Part shown: one piece after another, positions 24,251 to 29,134 of the stretch
Layout: each line of letters opens with the position of its first letter
Position numbering within the stretch: position 1 is the first letter of the stretch
Made by a program: the position numbers and the translations under genes
The notes under the pieces: model-generated
The model's input: only the letters and a program-made list of their open reading frames with translations
Databases searched by the model: none
What the model was told of the DNA's origin: nothing
Assembly: GCA_947497315.1 (NCBI GenBank)
Contig: CANMFX010000002.1
Coordinates: forward strand, 496,001 to 560,000
DNA from: an uncultured Sphingomonadaceae bacterium
GTDB lineage: Bacteria; Pseudomonadota; Alphaproteobacteria; Sphingomonadales; Sphingomonadaceae
Length of the DNA: 64,000 nucleotides
Direction of reading: 5' to 3'

Positions 24251-24883
24251 CTATATCTGCCGCTGGCCCAATGCTGCCTCGAACTCACGTCGTGCAGAGA
24301 CTTTCAGATACGGAAACAGCACGGCGAGGTGATGTTGAATACCGCGCTTCTGATCGGTCCAACTGACCTGCTCAAGTCCTTCGAGTTCCCGCAGATAGTC
24401 AACCCAATAGCGGCTGACGATCCACAGTGACCGGGCCAGGACATCAATGTTCTGTTCGTTATCTCTCAAGAAGAGACCTTCTTCGTCAATTCGCTTGAGT
24501 AAGTCGACAAGCCCCTCATAATCTGCGGTTAGTTCAGAATCCGGTCGCTGACCAACTGGTGCGCCGGCATAATGTATTCGATCACGCAGAAGGAAGCGGT
24601 AGCGCCATGTCAGCTGCATCCCGAATAGTAAGTGGTCGATATAGTTGTCAGCCAATGACCCGTTTTTCTTGGTTAAGCGATATTCTCTCATCGACAATAT
24701 TGCATCGTCCTCCAGCGCGATCGCCAGGTCGCGCTTCGTCGGAAAATGATAAGTTAAATTCCCTTGGGACATGTCCAAGGAAGCCGCGATTTCAGTAACT
24801 GACGTTGCTGCATATCCCTTTTCGTTGAAGGCTTTGCGACTGGCCTCCAATATGCGGTCCGCGGTGTGAGAACGCGCTTTCAT
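24251..24883 (-). CDS. TetR-family repressor of the divergent glutathione-linked operon
   Basis: A 210-aa protein starting at ATG 24883, with AGGAAA just upstream; a longer frame to 24922 would start at TTG inside the operator. The N-terminal helix-turn-helix is standard (R-I-L-E-A-S-R-K-A-F-N-E-K-G-Y, then S-V-T-E-I-A-A-S-L and N-L-T-Y-H-F-P-T-K). The C-terminal region is helical with many Trp and Arg and no recognisable ligand motif. It is divergent from the GMC oxidoreductase gene. Two perfect TAGGT-N6-ACCTA palindromes lie between the genes, so it very likely controls itself and the operon. The inducer is unknown and is probably a substrate or intermediate of that pathway. Confidence 0.9.
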   Translation of the reverse strand: MKARSHTADRILEASRKAFNEKGYAATSVTEIAASLDMSQGNLTYHFPTKRDLAIALEDDAILSMREYRLTKKNGSLADNYIDHLLFGMQLTWRYRFLLRDRIHYAGAPVGQRPDSELTADYEGLVDLLKRIDEEGLFLRDNEQNIDVLARSLWIVSRYWVDYLRELEGLEQVSWTDQKRGIQHHLAVLFPYLKVSARREFEAALGQRQI

Positions 24884-24924
24884 TTTTCCTATTTTCCTTC
24901 CCGGAGACAACAAACTTGTCAAAT

Positions 24925-24960
24925 TAGGTTTTATAACCTAATAATAGGTAATGCAACCTA
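24925..24960. promoter_or_regulatory. Two tandem TetR operators, TAGGT-N6-ACCTA
   Basis: Operator 1 is 24925-24940 (extended arms TTAGGTT/AACCTAA at 24924-24941) and operator 2 is 24945-24960. Both fit TAGGT-N6-ACCTA exactly, and their centres are 20 bp apart, i.e. two helical turns on one DNA face. On the plus strand a TTGTCA at 24916 with TAATAA/AATAAT at 24939-24945 would put a promoter across the operators. Confidence 0.8.
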
Positions 24961-24987
24961 ATTAGCGATTCTTGAAGCAGGAACAAG

Positions 24988-26487
24988 GTGAGGCGAGCAA
25001 CGATAGTGGAGCAAAATCTCAAACATATTATCATTGTCGGTGGCGGCACTGCTGGATCAGTTCTTGCTGCACGGCTCAGTGAAAGCCCTGCAATATATGT
25101 AACGCTGCTAGAAGCGGGCCCCAATGATACGACCTATGATTCCGCAATTCTCAATCCTGCACGGGCCGCTGATGCATGGCAGGGCGCTGTTCCAATCGCG
25201 ACGACCGTCATGAAAACGCAAAGCGCTGCCATTCCGATATTGCAGGGGCGGATACTGGGCGGGACATCTGCGGCCAATGGGTTGGCCACCTTGAGAGGGC
25301 TACCAGAAGATTATGACGGTTGGGCCGCTTCAGGACTGGACGGATGGGGCTGGAACGATGTTGCAGAAACTTTCATAGCCGCAGAAAGCGATCTGGATTT
25401 TGGGTCTAGTCCGATCCACGGCGATTCAGGTCCTCTTACGGTTCGCCGCTGGCGCCGCGATGAGATGAGCCATGCACAAATTGCGTTCCATGACGGCATG
25501 ACCGAAGTCGGTAATGCGATTGTTCAAGACATTAATGATCCTGACCAATTGCCAGGCATCGGTATTTTTCCGGTTACTGTTGATAAAGACACCAATCGAT
25601 TGTCGACCAGCCTTGCCTATTTGACTGATAGGGTAAGGCAGCGGGAAAATCTTGAGATCCGAACCAATGCCAAGGTTGCCGCGCTGCAAATTGAGAAATG
25701 CAGAGCGACAGGCGTTACGTTAGAGAGCGGTGAGCAGATTGAGGGCGATGAAGTGGTCGTGTCGGTCGGCGCTCTATGGTCTCCCGCTCTGCTCATGCGA
25801 TCCGGCGTTGGTCCGGCTTCTCACCTTGCTGACCATGATATAGTTGTTCAAGCTGATTTGCCAGTTGGTGAGACCATGGCCGATCATCTGGGGCCATCTG
25901 TGCCCTACACTCATGAAGGACCGCGTGGCGGCACCGCCGGACCGGCGCAGTCTCTTTACATCGGCGCATCCAATGGCAAAGACGTTGACTATCATTTGTT
26001 CCCAATAGCACCCGCACCGACGGACGATCTAACCAACTTTGTGATGGCGGCTTTCTTGATGCACTCTCCCGGCAACGGCAAGGTGCGGCTGAGCGATAGT
26101 GTGGACTCCGATCCTGTCGTGACCGCTCCCAATCTACCCGAAGACGGTATCAATCGGTTGCGGCATGCTTTTCAGAAAATTGCAGAATGGGAGGCGTCGG
26201 AAGCCTTCAGACAGTCTGGATGCCGGCCGTTGATACCCTATGACCTTACCAAAAAAGAAGCGGTATCTGTCGCGCTGGATCGTGGGATTGTCAGCTATGG
26301 TCATATGACCAGCACCTGCCCGATGGGAACGGTGCTGGATGCCGATTGTCGGGTCCGGGGTATTGCCCGGCTGCGTGTGGTCGATGCTTCGGTTATGCCT
26401 ACTATCCCGGCGGGTAACACATATCTGGGCTGTGTTATGATTGCAGAACGGATTGCCCGCAAAATGAAAGCGGAACTGGACCAATGA
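24988..26487 (+). CDS. GMC-family FAD oxidoreductase (choline-dehydrogenase-like)
   Basis: The start is GTG at 24988 with AGGA 5 bases upstream; GTG 25006 is an alternative. The 499-aa protein has the FAD-binding I-I-I-V-G-G-G-T-A-G-S-V-L-A-A-R-L near residues 14-30, the flavin-loop G-R-I-L-G-G-T-S-A-A-N-G, the GMC signature around W-S-P-A-L-L-M-R-S-G-V-G, and the C-terminal G-H-M-T-S-T-C-P-M-G and P-A-G-N-T-Y-L-G motifs that carry the active-site His and Asn. Family members oxidise alcohols (choline, benzyl or polyethylene-glycol alcohols, cyclic alcohols) to carbonyls. It is the first gene of a four-gene operon with glutathione-linked partners and TetR control. Substrate not readable. Confidence 0.9.
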   Translation: MRRATIVEQNLKHIIIVGGGTAGSVLAARLSESPAIYVTLLEAGPNDTTYDSAILNPARAADAWQGAVPIATTVMKTQSAAIPILQGRILGGTSAANGLATLRGLPEDYDGWAASGLDGWGWNDVAETFIAAESDLDFGSSPIHGDSGPLTVRRWRRDEMSHAQIAFHDGMTEVGNAIVQDINDPDQLPGIGIFPVTVDKDTNRLSTSLAYLTDRVRQRENLEIRTNAKVAALQIEKCRATGVTLESGEQIEGDEVVVSVGALWSPALLMRSGVGPASHLADHDIVVQADLPVGETMADHLGPSVPYTHEGPRGGTAGPAQSLYIGASNGKDVDYHLFPIAPAPTDDLTNFVMAAFLMHSPGNGKVRLSDSVDSDPVVTAPNLPEDGINRLRHAFQKIAEWEASEAFRQSGCRPLIPYDLTKKEAVSVALDRGIVSYGHMTSTCPMGTVLDADCRVRGIARLRVVDASVMPTIPAGNTYLGCVMIAERIARKMKAELDQ

Positions 26488-26516
26488 TAATCTCAAAAAG
26501 AACTGAAAGGTAAAAA

Positions 26517-27170
26517 ATGGCCAACACCATTGATGTTTTCTGGTCGTTCAGAAGCCCATATTCCTATCTGGTGACGCCAGACTTATTGCGACTGCGCGAG
26601 GATTATGCGGTGAGCGTCTCGCTTCGTCCAGTATTACCGATTGCTTTACGTGCTAAATCAACGGTGTTCGATGCCGCGGACAAAAAGCGGCCGCGCTATA
26701 TTGTAATGGATTCCATGCGGCGAGCGGCGTTTCTGGGATTGCCGTTTGTCTGGCCCAAGCCGGATCCGGTCGTTCAGGACCTGGAGACTTTCGAGGTTCC
26801 CGAAGACCAGCCTTATATCTGGCGATTGTCGATGCTCGGTGTTGAGGCAGAACGGCAAGGAAAGGGTATAGATTTCGCATATCATGTAGCCGCTCTTTTG
26901 TGGGGTGGAACCAAAAACTGGGACAAAGGCGAATATTTGACGCTTGCTGCTGAACGCGCGGGCCTAGATCTCTCTGAGATGGAAAGTGTTTTCGCGCATT
27001 ATGATGTCAAGGCTGAGATAGAGAAAAACCATATGTTGCTAGAACAATCTGGTCATTGGGGCGTACCGACAATGGTCTTCAAGGGTGAACCGTTTTTTGG
27101 TCAGGACCGGATCGATACGCTGCGTTGGCGGCTCGATGAGGCGGGACTGCGGCGCAGTCCGTCCAAGTAA
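26517..27170 (+). CDS. DsbA-family / 2-hydroxychromene-2-carboxylate isomerase-like protein
   Basis: A 217-aa protein of the thioredoxin-fold DsbA/GST-kappa group. The N-terminal F-W-S-F-R-S-P-Y-S-Y-L near residues 9-19 is the glutathione-activating region of HCCA isomerases and kappa GSTs, where a serine replaces the CxxC of DsbA. The helical insert is typical (residues about 60-170), and the C-terminal G-V-P-T-M-V-F-K-G is the cis-Pro loop that contacts glutathione. NahD-like members isomerise an aromatic catabolic intermediate with bound GSH; others conjugate or reduce. The gene lies 29 bp after the GMC gene and 47 bp before the SDR gene. Confidence 0.85.
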   Translation: MANTIDVFWSFRSPYSYLVTPDLLRLREDYAVSVSLRPVLPIALRAKSTVFDAADKKRPRYIVMDSMRRAAFLGLPFVWPKPDPVVQDLETFEVPEDQPYIWRLSMLGVEAERQGKGIDFAYHVAALLWGGTKNWDKGEYLTLAAERAGLDLSEMESVFAHYDVKAEIEKNHMLLEQSGHWGVPTMVFKGEPFFGQDRIDTLRWRLDEAGLRRSPSK

Positions 27171-27217
27171 CCAACAGAACGAACAAGCCATATCTAACAA
27201 CAAAGGGGGACTAACAA

Positions 27218-28012
27218 ATGGATCTTCAGATCAAAGGCAAAAAGGCCATTATGGCAGGCGGCAGTGCTGGTATGGGAAGAGCAACTGCTGAACGCCTTGC
27301 CGAGGCAGGAGCGGAGCTAATCATTTCTGCCCGTGGCGAAGCTCGATTACAAAAAGCCGCAGAGCAAATCGCGGAGACATACGGCGTACCGGTAACACCG
27401 GTTGTTGCAGATTCCTCAACCGAGGCGGGTCGAGAGGCGTTATTCGCTGCCTGTCCTGATCCCGATATTCTTGCGATTACGATAAAGCCGCCCGATCCCA
27501 ACGGAGATTTTTTGGATGTATCGGCCGAAATGTGGCGCGATTCAGTGGAGACAGCCTTGATCGGGCCGATCGAAATCATGCGAAATTATATCCCCGCAAT
27601 GAAGAAGAAAGGCTGGGGCAGGATCGTCAACATCGCTACCTTCTCTGCCAAGAACCCGATGATCTGGCGGTTGATGTCGGGTCCAGCTCGGTCCGCTTTA
27701 CTCAATTACACGGCAAGCGTTTCACGGGAAATTGCCCCGCATGGCGTTATCATGAACAATCTTCTGCCTGGCATGTTTGCGACTGAGGGCGCATCGGAAA
27801 TTATGGGTGCCTATGCCGATGCCTTCGGCCTTGAACGCAAACCAGAAATCGTAAGGGCGCACTTCAAGGAACATAACCACATTCCCGCTGGCTTTATGGG
27901 TGATGCCGACGATCTCGCGCCGATGGCTGCTTTCCTGTGCAGTTCCCTGGCAAGATTTATCGTCGGTCAGAATATTGTGATCGACGGTGGGCAACACAAC
28001 TCCATTTTCTGA
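27218..28012 (+). CDS. Atypical SDR-family protein without YxxxK
   Basis: A 264-aa Rossmann-fold SDR with strong ribosome site AAAGGGGGA. The cofactor motif is G-G-S-A-G-M-G near residues 14-20. The canonical NNAG is replaced by I-T-I-K-P-P, and the catalytic Y-x3-K by S154-G-P-A-R158; the strand before it reads N-I-A-T-F-S. A known SDR subgroup, the FabG-like reductases with S-N-A-A-R, also has S-x3-R at this place, but the NNAG loss is an additional change. The C-terminal V-I-D-G-G is normal. NAD(P) binding is likely; whether it catalyses hydride transfer is open. It sits between the isomerase-like and GST genes of the operon. Confidence 0.87.
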   Translation: MDLQIKGKKAIMAGGSAGMGRATAERLAEAGAELIISARGEARLQKAAEQIAETYGVPVTPVVADSSTEAGREALFAACPDPDILAITIKPPDPNGDFLDVSAEMWRDSVETALIGPIEIMRNYIPAMKKKGWGRIVNIATFSAKNPMIWRLMSGPARSALLNYTASVSREIAPHGVIMNNLLPGMFATEGASEIMGAYADAFGLERKPEIVRAHFKEHNHIPAGFMGDADDLAPMAAFLCSSLARFIVGQNIVIDGGQHNSIF

Positions 28013-28057
28013 TGAATAGATCGAACGAGAAGACCGGAAGAATATGAGGAGGGGCAT

Positions 28058-29134
28058 ATGATAGTCTACGGATCGCGTATTTCTTACTATACGGGCAAAC
28101 TTGAAGCCTATTTGCGCTATAAGAATATTGCTTATACGCCTTTGCCGACACCTTATGGCAACGCCCAGATGCTAAAGGAAAAGGTGGGCGCGGTGCAGAT
28201 GCCAATTGTCGATGATGATGGAAAGTGGATGTCAGATACGACACCTATCATCATGCATCTTGAGGATGAGCATCCAGATAACCCTATCTTGCCGGACGAT
28301 CCGGTCGTTAATTTCATTTCACATCTTATCGAAGATTATGGGGATGAATGGCTTTGGCGGTCAGCAATGTACTATCGTTGGTGGTATGACTGTGACAGGC
28401 TGCTTGCCTCCAACGTTCTGACTGATGAGGTTACTGGACATTTAAAATTGCCTCGGTGGATGAGACTAAAGATGATAGTTCGCCGACAGGTTCGTCACTA
28501 TGTCAAACGAGATGGTGTCACAGAAGAAACACGCAAACATATCGAGCAAACATATCACAGTGCGCTAGCTGGCATGACAGCGATGTTGGAGAATCGCCCG
28601 TTTCTTCTCGGTAGTGCGCCATCACTGGCCGATTTTGGAATGATGGGGCCTATGTTCCGTCATTATGGTCAAGACCCCACGCCGCAGGAAATAATGCGCA
28701 ACACCGCGCCGGCAGTTTTTGAATGGGTTGCCCGGATGTGGCATGGTCAGAACCAAGATCAGCCAAAGTTTGTTACCCAAATACCAAGTGATGCTGCACC
28801 ATTGTTGAAAGAAATCTGTGAAACGCATTTGGTTCAATTGACGGCTAATGCAGAAGCTTTTGCTAGGGATGAGGAGCGCTTTGATATGACGGTTCAAGGC
28901 TGCGATTATCAGGATATCGCTGTATCAAGATATCGTGTTTGGTGCCTCGAAGAGTTGCGTCACCGTTTTGACTTGCTGTCCGCAGATCAGCAAAAAACGG
29001 TCAAAGCGTTACTTCCCTTTGGTAATGCGGAAGTTCTTTGGGATACACAGGTTCTGGCACAATCCGATTATAACCGCGATAATCATCTACCCTTTGGAAG
29101 GGCCATGAACGTATTCAATGGCGGACTCCCATAA
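28058..29134 (+). CDS. Glutathione S-transferase-like protein, long form
   Basis: A 358-aa protein starting 5 bp after a strong GAGGAGG site. The N-terminal thioredoxin-fold domain (about 1-80) has S-Y-Y-T-G-K-L-E-A-Y-L where GSTs have the glutathione-activating Tyr/Ser and first helix, then V-Q-M-P-I-V-D-D-D and S-D-T-T-P-I-I-M-H-L for the cis-Pro loop and glutamyl contact. The C-terminal helical domain carries the usual S-L-A-D-F-G motif (about 188-193). At 358 aa it is well above the usual 200-230 aa and has an extra ~120-residue C-terminal part that I do not recognise. Last gene of the TetR-controlled operon; a conjugation or thiolytic step is inferred. Confidence 0.85.
   Translation: MIVYGSRISYYTGKLEAYLRYKNIAYTPLPTPYGNAQMLKEKVGAVQMPIVDDDGKWMSDTTPIIMHLEDEHPDNPILPDDPVVNFISHLIEDYGDEWLWRSAMYYRWWYDCDRLLASNVLTDEVTGHLKLPRWMRLKMIVRRQVRHYVKRDGVTEETRKHIEQTYHSALAGMTAMLENRPFLLGSAPSLADFGMMGPMFRHYGQDPTPQEIMRNTAPAVFEWVARMWHGQNQDQPKFVTQIPSDAAPLLKEICETHLVQLTANAEAFARDEERFDMTVQGCDYQDIAVSRYRVWCLEELRHRFDLLSADQQKTVKALLPFGNAEVLWDTQVLAQSDYNRDNHLPFGRAMNVFNGGLP

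Follow-up and report, generated by a model that had tools for sequence, protein, structure and literature searches.

A TetR-linked, glutathione-type operon in Sphingomonadaceae that may handle unsaturated carbonyl compounds

The locus and its operator

Within a window of 64,000 nucleotides from an uncultured Sphingomonadaceae bacterium (the whole stretch analyzed; assembly GCA_947497315.1, contig CANMFX010000002.1, positions 496,001 to 560,000, from a Parasphingorhabdus-type genome of 3.4 Mb in 9 contigs), a divergent TetR-family gene faces four co-directional genes for a GMC flavin oxidoreductase, a DsbA-type protein, a divergent short-chain dehydrogenase/reductase (SDR) and a long glutathione S-transferase (GST) (Table 1). 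The original prediction had described these five open reading frames (ORFs), their order, their families and the gaps of 29, 47 and 45 bp separating the GMC, DsbA-type, SDR and GST genes; the ORF positions and the measured gaps agree with it, and every one of the five proteins passes its Pfam cut-off (TetR_N and PF13972; GMC_oxred_N and GMC_oxred_C; DSBA, PF01323; adh_short and adh_short_C2; GST_N_3). The TetR gene and its divergent orientation also stand, with the start most likely at ATG 24883 rather than at TTG 24922, because the frames of seven relatives first open there (G013, a second copy in G014, G024, G009, G019, G668 and G567). Judging from its relatives, the GMC gene may start at GTG 25006 rather than at 24988.

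The corrected TetR start leaves about 100 bp between the TetR and GMC genes, in which two palindromes, TAGGTTTTATAACCTA at 24925 and TAGGTAATGCAACCTA at 24945, lie over a sigma-70-like promoter; the region has 12 promoter-like sites against 5.4 in shuffles, and TTGTCA-18-AATAAT is a consensus match only. The double palindrome TAGGT-N6-ACCTA over the promoter is new in this analysis. Its period is 20 bp (19 bp in G567), and it occurs at every one of the 14 loci with this TetR, exactly at ten (G000, G030, G014, G013, G024, G009, G668, G670, G567 and G454), with one mismatch in G373 and with two in G007, G019 and the second G014 copy. These include a locus (L168, in G454) where TetR, GMC and GST genes occur without DsbA or SDR, and G567, where the doublet precedes the GMC gene and the TetR gene lies downstream. 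No exact doublet was found elsewhere in the 1.42 Mb (redundant) of locus DNA compared, and no TAGGT-N6-ACCTA site at orphan GST genes or at the loci of G306 and G230. The TetR proteins of other families are 53–61% identical, yet the recognition segment SQGNL[TS]YHF is constant in 12 of 12 aligned rows, which represent 12 of the 14 TetR loci (G454 and the truncated G670, at the end of a contig, were left out).

Lying over the promoter and conserved between regulator and genes, the doublet fits an operon autoregulated by TetR, and repressor binding to it is predicted; because the operator is conserved, TetR control of the operon is likely. The gene locus and the operator are strongly supported. 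A wider regulon is unsupported, since the double site (up to three mismatches) occurs once in the source genome, as it does in a reversed-pattern control, and the single palindrome has one further site there (C1:1188187) against two in the control; we claim no other target. An inverted repeat, CTCTCTT-AAACA-AAGAGAG, is shared by G567 and G535 before their DsbA-SDR genes (L142:7300-7480 and L143:7780-7940; seen by eye) and is apparently the site of another regulator.

Table 1. Features of the TetR-linked locus, in window coordinates
Feature	Position	Strand	Basis and remarks
TetR-family repressor, 210 aa	24251..24883	-	PF00440, PF13972; start corrected from 24922
Sigma-70-like promoter, TTGTCA-18-AATAAT, overlapping the operator	24916..24945	+	10/12 consensus positions
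Double operator, TAGGT-N6-ACCTA, N4, TAGGT-N6-ACCTA	24925..24960	.	14/14 loci having this TetR
GMC flavin oxidoreductase, 499 aa	24988..26487	+	PF00732, PF05199; start perhaps 25006
DsbA-fold protein, 2-hydroxychromene-2-carboxylate isomerase/GST-kappa type, 217 aa	26517..27170	+	PF01323, 2imd, RSPYS
Divergent SDR without Tyr/Lys, 264 aa; probable alkene-reductase-like enzyme	27218..28012	+	Pfam, PDB matches, alignment
Long glutathione S-transferase, 358 aa, C-terminal extension unmatched in Pfam	28058..29134	+	GST_N_3, PDB match

Recurrence and gene histories across Alphaproteobacteria

Orthologues of the SDR were counted in overlapping samples, each including the source genome, by scoring the best 6–17 first-look candidates per genome, so that the counts may be low. 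They were found in 8 of 147 relatives (at least 84% identity), 6 of 396 genomes of the order (at least 85%) and 5 of 385 of the class (at least 78%); in the phylum sample (299 genomes, Alphaproteobacteria included) the SDR was matched at E ≤ 1e-60 in the source genome only. A match to the DsbA-type protein at E ≤ 1e-35 is present in 167 of the 396 genomes of the order.

The surrounding DNA was read at 16 loci with SDR orthologues (at least 78% identity) from 15 genomes. The full set, with TetR divergent from GMC-DsbA-SDR-GST, occurs in four genomes including the source (G000, G030, G014 and G013), of which G000, G014 and G030 are near-identical and have common flanks. The GMC gene is missing from the set in G373, and four genomes (G024, G009, G019 and G007) combine TetR and GMC-DsbA-SDR with a different long GST (415–421 amino acids, about 37% identical) on the TetR side. 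In G007 (L040:11260-11720) the GMC gene is reduced to residues 8–34 and 435–494, with operator, TetR, DsbA and SDR kept, and in G019 (L042:2393-5553) a lignostilbene-dioxygenase-like carotenoid oxygenase and an aldehyde dehydrogenase (ALDH) resembling succinate-semialdehyde dehydrogenase adjoin the operon. The SDR-GST pair stands alone in G306 and G230, and the second TetR and DsbA-SDR copy in G014 (L128:8158-8766), with its SDR cut near residue 190, is adjoined by two transposase-like ORFs (named by eye). Other families have TetR with GMC-DsbA-SDR (G668), TetR with GMC-SDR (G670, on a short contig), GMC-TetR with a divergent DsbA-SDR (G567) or DsbA-SDR with another TetR-type gene (G535), and all four of these genomes encode full-length relatives of the window GST (42–52%) elsewhere. 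These smaller sets are spread over other genera and four other alphaproteobacterial families.

Across the 16 SDR loci the DsbA gene directly precedes the SDR gene at 13, this TetR is present at 13 and an intact GMC gene at 10. The window-type GST is found at seven, the other long GST at four and neither at five; the GST is the loosest member of the set. The original prediction staked its case on the four genes lying together elsewhere, and for the core this is what we find, as the gene order recurs outside the genus with the core co-located. The four-gene set as such occurs exactly in the four genomes named above, and it is not one fixed set, its members varying by locus. By an independent route, G454 links the GST to TetR and GMC: there the GST gene adjoins these two without DsbA or SDR, the GMC gene being split over two frames. 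Of the 32 genomes of the genus, 8 have the SDR, and the same 8 have a strong GST match (at least 225 bits), a co-occurrence that is not independent evidence, as most of the eight are physically linked. Neighborhoods of unlinked GST genes, compared side by side with two near-copies of the window (L044 and L045) left out, have no partner common to all. As for plasmid origin, a search of 72,556 plasmid records returned one match to the GST (35% identity) and 15 to the DsbA-type protein (24–29%), and this origin was rejected.

In the SDR tree, built without the cut second copy of G014 and four ordinary SDRs, the sequences nearest to the window by path are those of G014, G030 and G013, followed by G373 and G306 of other genera, which lie nearer to the window than G007, G009, G019 and G024 of its own genus. 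The DsbA tree places G024 in the window's group (99/98) and G373 outside it. The two trees disagree, and these two neighboring genes therefore have different histories. Collectively, the tree conflict, the second G014 copy and the patchy spread make exchange and reshuffling of these genes likely, though only likely, with several forks open. The GST gene has a G+C content of 47%, lower than that of the GMC, DsbA-type and SDR genes (52–54%) and of the whole window (52.5%), which perhaps points to a separate origin; relatives of this GST occur in Parasphingorhabdus marina DSM 22363 (82%), Sphingorhabdus sp. EL138 (97%) and an uncultured Sphingomonadaceae bacterium (97%).

Possible chemistry and competing explanations

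The SDR lacks the catalytic Tyr and Lys, as had been noted at the outset: Ser and Arg occupy the YxxxK positions in all 16 orthologues, the catalytic Ser is replaced by Thr in all 16, and the Asn by Ala in 14 and Thr in two (the G013 row lacks its last residues, which leaves the active-site columns unaffected). The GxxxGxG nucleotide-binding motif is kept as AGGSAGMG in 16 of 16. The five closest PDB sequences likewise have no Tyr, reading SNGAR (5vps, 5idx and 5va8), SNSAR (1o5i) and SGVVN (6jh7) at this site. Entry 6jh7 is AerF by its title and is matched over the full length (query residues 1–264, E 1.4e-36), with S-G-P-A-R in the operon SDR against S-G-V-V-N; a further entry, 6jhb, is titled as AerF with NADPH and 4-hydroxyphenylpyruvic acid. 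AerF, an NADPH-dependent alkenal double-bond reductase, is the nearest solved SDR relative with a reported function. The predicted structure of the operon SDR is poor (pLDDT 55), and the VIA-align list, in which many SDRs have tied Z scores, served only as a source of entry titles and of the AerF identity. An ordinary alcohol dehydrogenase is unlikely, and the relationship to AerF points to a probable alkene-reductase-like enzyme. Paralogues of the SDR occur in other contexts: in G013 (L114:9194-11110) a 45% SDR and a 33–35% GST are adjacent on one strand, so that SDR-GST pairing recurs outside the operon, and a 44–46% paralogue of the Tyr-less SDR is found in two small alphaproteobacterial genomes of 1.3–1.4 Mb (L145 in G712 and L147 in G788), adjoining Rieske ring-hydroxylating oxygenases (two tested), a P450 and an FAD_binding_2 flavoprotein in L145 and, by eye, similar genes in L147.

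The DsbA-type protein scores 77.1 bits against PF01323 (cut-off 25.6), and the one PDB sequence that it matches at E ≤ 0.001 is 2imd, a 2-hydroxychromene-2-carboxylate (HCCA) isomerase, with which its SPYSYL and GVPT segments align; RSPYS is present in 18 of 18 rows. The protein thus has the DSBA-like domain and the SP[FY]SYL serine motif of the HCCA isomerase/GST-kappa type, and glutathione-dependent isomerase activity is predicted. In HCCA isomerases and GST-kappa enzymes this serine activates glutathione, and the HCCA isomerase product, formed in naphthalene breakdown, is a conjugated enone. Sphingomonadales have, in addition, another family of this DsbA type (45–52% identical; L076:9279-9926 and L081:9178-9846), adjoined in L081 by an alpha/beta hydrolase. 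The GMC protein has a His (HM..TCPMG) and an Asn (GNTYLG) in 10 of 10 rows, which we take to be the active-site pair; 5-(hydroxymethyl)furfural oxidase and pyridoxine 4-oxidase are among its nearest relatives of solved structure.

The only PDB match of the long GST at E ≤ 0.001 is the beta-etherase 4yam, over residues 5–113; its C-terminal part (residues 234–358 alone) reaches no Pfam cut-off, and its AlphaFold model, made from four near-identical rows, has a mean pLDDT of 37.5. Membership of the curated beta-etherase family (NF042997, 36.5 bits against 440) and of the isoprene-epoxide GST family IsoI (NF049950, 35.7 against 300) was rejected. The IsoI model gives 24.8, 44.1 and 48.6 bits on three other long GSTs, and PF02332 (isoprene monooxygenase) has no match in the source genome (0 of 1), but the control gave none either (0 of 14). 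Several genes recur near GST loci. A CRP/cNMP-type regulator (47–96% identical; Pfam run on two) stands divergent beside a long GST or an SDR-GST pair at L112, L113, L155, L168, L169 and L170; four GST loci, forming two related pairs (L155/L170 and L168/L169), have nearby an ORF identified by eye as acyl-CoA-dehydrogenase-like; and two loci encode glyoxalase-superfamily proteins that are 65% identical to each other (Pfam run on the first), one in G373, 3' of the DsbA-SDR-GST genes (L080:12210-12776), and one in G587, at a distance of about 4 kb from the GST gene (L169:13869-14381).

We tentatively favor a self-regulated, shuffled module that handles an alpha,beta-unsaturated carbonyl (an enal or enone), with an isomerase-reductase pair at its heart. 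This chemistry is inferred from distant relatives: for half of the four enzymes, the DsbA-type protein and the SDR, the nearest characterized relatives work on conjugated C=C-C=O systems, as GSTs also commonly do. TetR would bind the doublet and be released by the substrate or an intermediate; the GMC enzyme would oxidize an allylic or benzylic-type alcohol to the enal or enone; the HCCA-isomerase-like protein would add and remove glutathione, flipping or shifting the conjugated double bond; the SDR would reduce this bond with NADPH, as AerF does; and the long GST would add glutathione to the same electrophile or remove it. An isomerase followed by an alkene reductase would explain why the DsbA gene directly precedes the SDR gene.

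Several observations weigh against this explanation. The match to 2imd amounts to 36 bits in all, with neither stretch significant alone; the SDR is 28–29% identical to AerF, a value taken from aligning a low-confidence model; it carries R at the position of the AerF N, and it may be inactive or have a non-redox function; and 1o5i, likewise without Tyr and Lys, is named a 3-oxoacyl-ACP reductase. In locus counts that are anchored on the SDR, 6 of the 16 loci have a deleted GMC gene or none, three have no DsbA gene, and at nine the window-type GST is replaced or unlinked. Relatives of the DsbA-type protein (58–65% identity) in G135, G112, G129, G108 and G307 have no other operon genes within 1.5 kb, and in G135, G112 and G307, read for about 9 kb on each side, no GMC, TetR or GST gene of this kind was seen, only one distant SDR (25%) in G135. 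In a class sample of 190 genomes, a GST match at E ≤ 1e-60 is found in 11, of which three have an SDR orthologue (the source, G535 and G567) and the other eight, G454 among them, are absent from the 40 SDR-positive genomes of the 385-genome class sample; G034, outside the genus, also has a GST match without the SDR. The DsbA-SDR genes of G567 and G535 sit behind a different-looking promoter. No coenzyme A (CoA) ligase, oxygenase or transporter gene recurs at the SDR loci, and a full pathway is not visible there.

Detoxification and catabolism are close rivals of the enal/enone module, and biosynthesis is less likely. Inducible detoxification of a reactive electrophile such as a quinone, enone or epoxide, in which TetR would sense the compound, the GST and the isomerase-like protein would handle adducts and the SDR would quench the double bond, is conceivable, if somewhat less so than the module. 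The small size of the set, in which no CoA ligase, transporter or oxygenase recurs, the patchy distribution in the genus, the CRP-type regulator at six loci and the glyoxalase-superfamily protein at two are consistent with it, but a GMC oxidase would tend to make electrophiles rather than remove them, and the acyl-CoA-dehydrogenase-like ORF fits breakdown better.

The original prediction had proposed a glutathione-linked catabolic operon, and its outline of a TetR-linked, conserved, glutathione-flavored operon holds. Under this reading the GMC enzyme and the SDR would both act as alcohol or carbonyl dehydrogenases and the glutathione enzymes would cleave or conjugate the product by beta-ether or epoxide chemistry. 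The best NCBIfam models of the GST are those of the beta-etherases and the isoprene-epoxide GST, and in the isoprene pathway the SDR IsoH, an active NAD+ dehydrogenase, oxidizes a glutathione adduct (PMC10057887). ALDH genes were also seen close to the operon in G009 and G019. However, the GST scores fall far below both cut-offs, the operon has no oxygenase, the SDR lacks Tyr, Lys and their Asn/Ser partners in all 16 orthologues, and the ALDH genes accompany only 2 of 16 SDR loci and differ in their best models; we consider such a catabolic role unlikely.

A biosynthetic or tailoring module is very unlikely: AerF and YwfH, SDR relatives with named roles, belong to natural-product synthesis, but no peptide synthetase was seen at the loci read (from ORF starts, by eye), and a GST with an isomerase suggests breakdown. 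Chance assembly of loose stress genes with shared descent is hardly credible, for although the near-identical G000, G014 and G030 have the same flanks and DsbA and GST relatives also occur alone, the same combinations turn up between unrelated flanks in other genera and families, and all 14 TetR loci have one operator type.

Taken together, these data turn an anonymous cluster into a testable module, in which the inducer can be sought directly through a defined repressor and operator and the recurrent DsbA-SDR pair supplies two enzymes for joint assays. Many of the alphaproteobacterial genomes searched have relatives of the Tyr-less SDR and the long GST with no assigned function, and a substrate here would help their annotation.

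Relation to known systems

To our knowledge, no operon has been described in which a kappa-type glutathione isomerase and a Tyr-less SDR alkene reductase act in sequence. That no named pathway has this set, as the original prediction held, agrees with the open-licence literature on GMC with HCCA isomerase, GST, SDR and TetR, in which we found no described counterpart; papers on naphthalene or phenanthrene, or unrelated ones, came up instead of a cluster of this make-up, an absence that is not proof. It is possible, though doubtful, that the operon represents an undescribed glutathione-assisted enone pathway across Alphaproteobacteria, in which an isomerase and a reductase of these kinds would be paired, fed by the GMC enzyme and regulated through the doublet.

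Individual members resemble known proteins to different degrees. The mycofactocin dehydrogenase MftG and the choline-dehydrogenase-type GMC enzymes (BetA) are the closest NCBIfam models to the operon GMC and have the His/Asn pair in common with it; the scores (269.7 of 387.45 bits for MftG, TIGR03970, and 210.2 of 732.1 for BetA) assign it to neither. The HCCA isomerase 2imd is of the same DsbA/GST-kappa type, with the serine and VPT motifs in common, but the match is weak and the operon has GMC, SDR and GST genes instead of a ring-hydroxylating dioxygenase or other naphthalene genes. Lignin beta-etherases are matched by the N-terminal part of the operon GST, whereas its C-terminal extension, its low score and the lack of Lig partners in the operon set it apart. 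The isoprene cluster isoGHIJ-aldH is like the operon in combining a GST and an SDR in a glutathione-linked pathway, and no GMC or HCCA-type isomerase is described for it in the available part of the source (PMC10057887). AerE-AerF belongs to the natural-product cluster of aeruginosin, its SDR is 28–29% identical with N in place of R, and its isomerase AerE is a cupin according to a title cited in PMC10143770, unlike the predicted glutathione-type isomerase of the operon. With AerE-AerF and with YwfH, the operon would nevertheless have in common a Tyr-less SDR, NADPH-dependent reduction of a conjugated double bond and an isomerase in the pathway.

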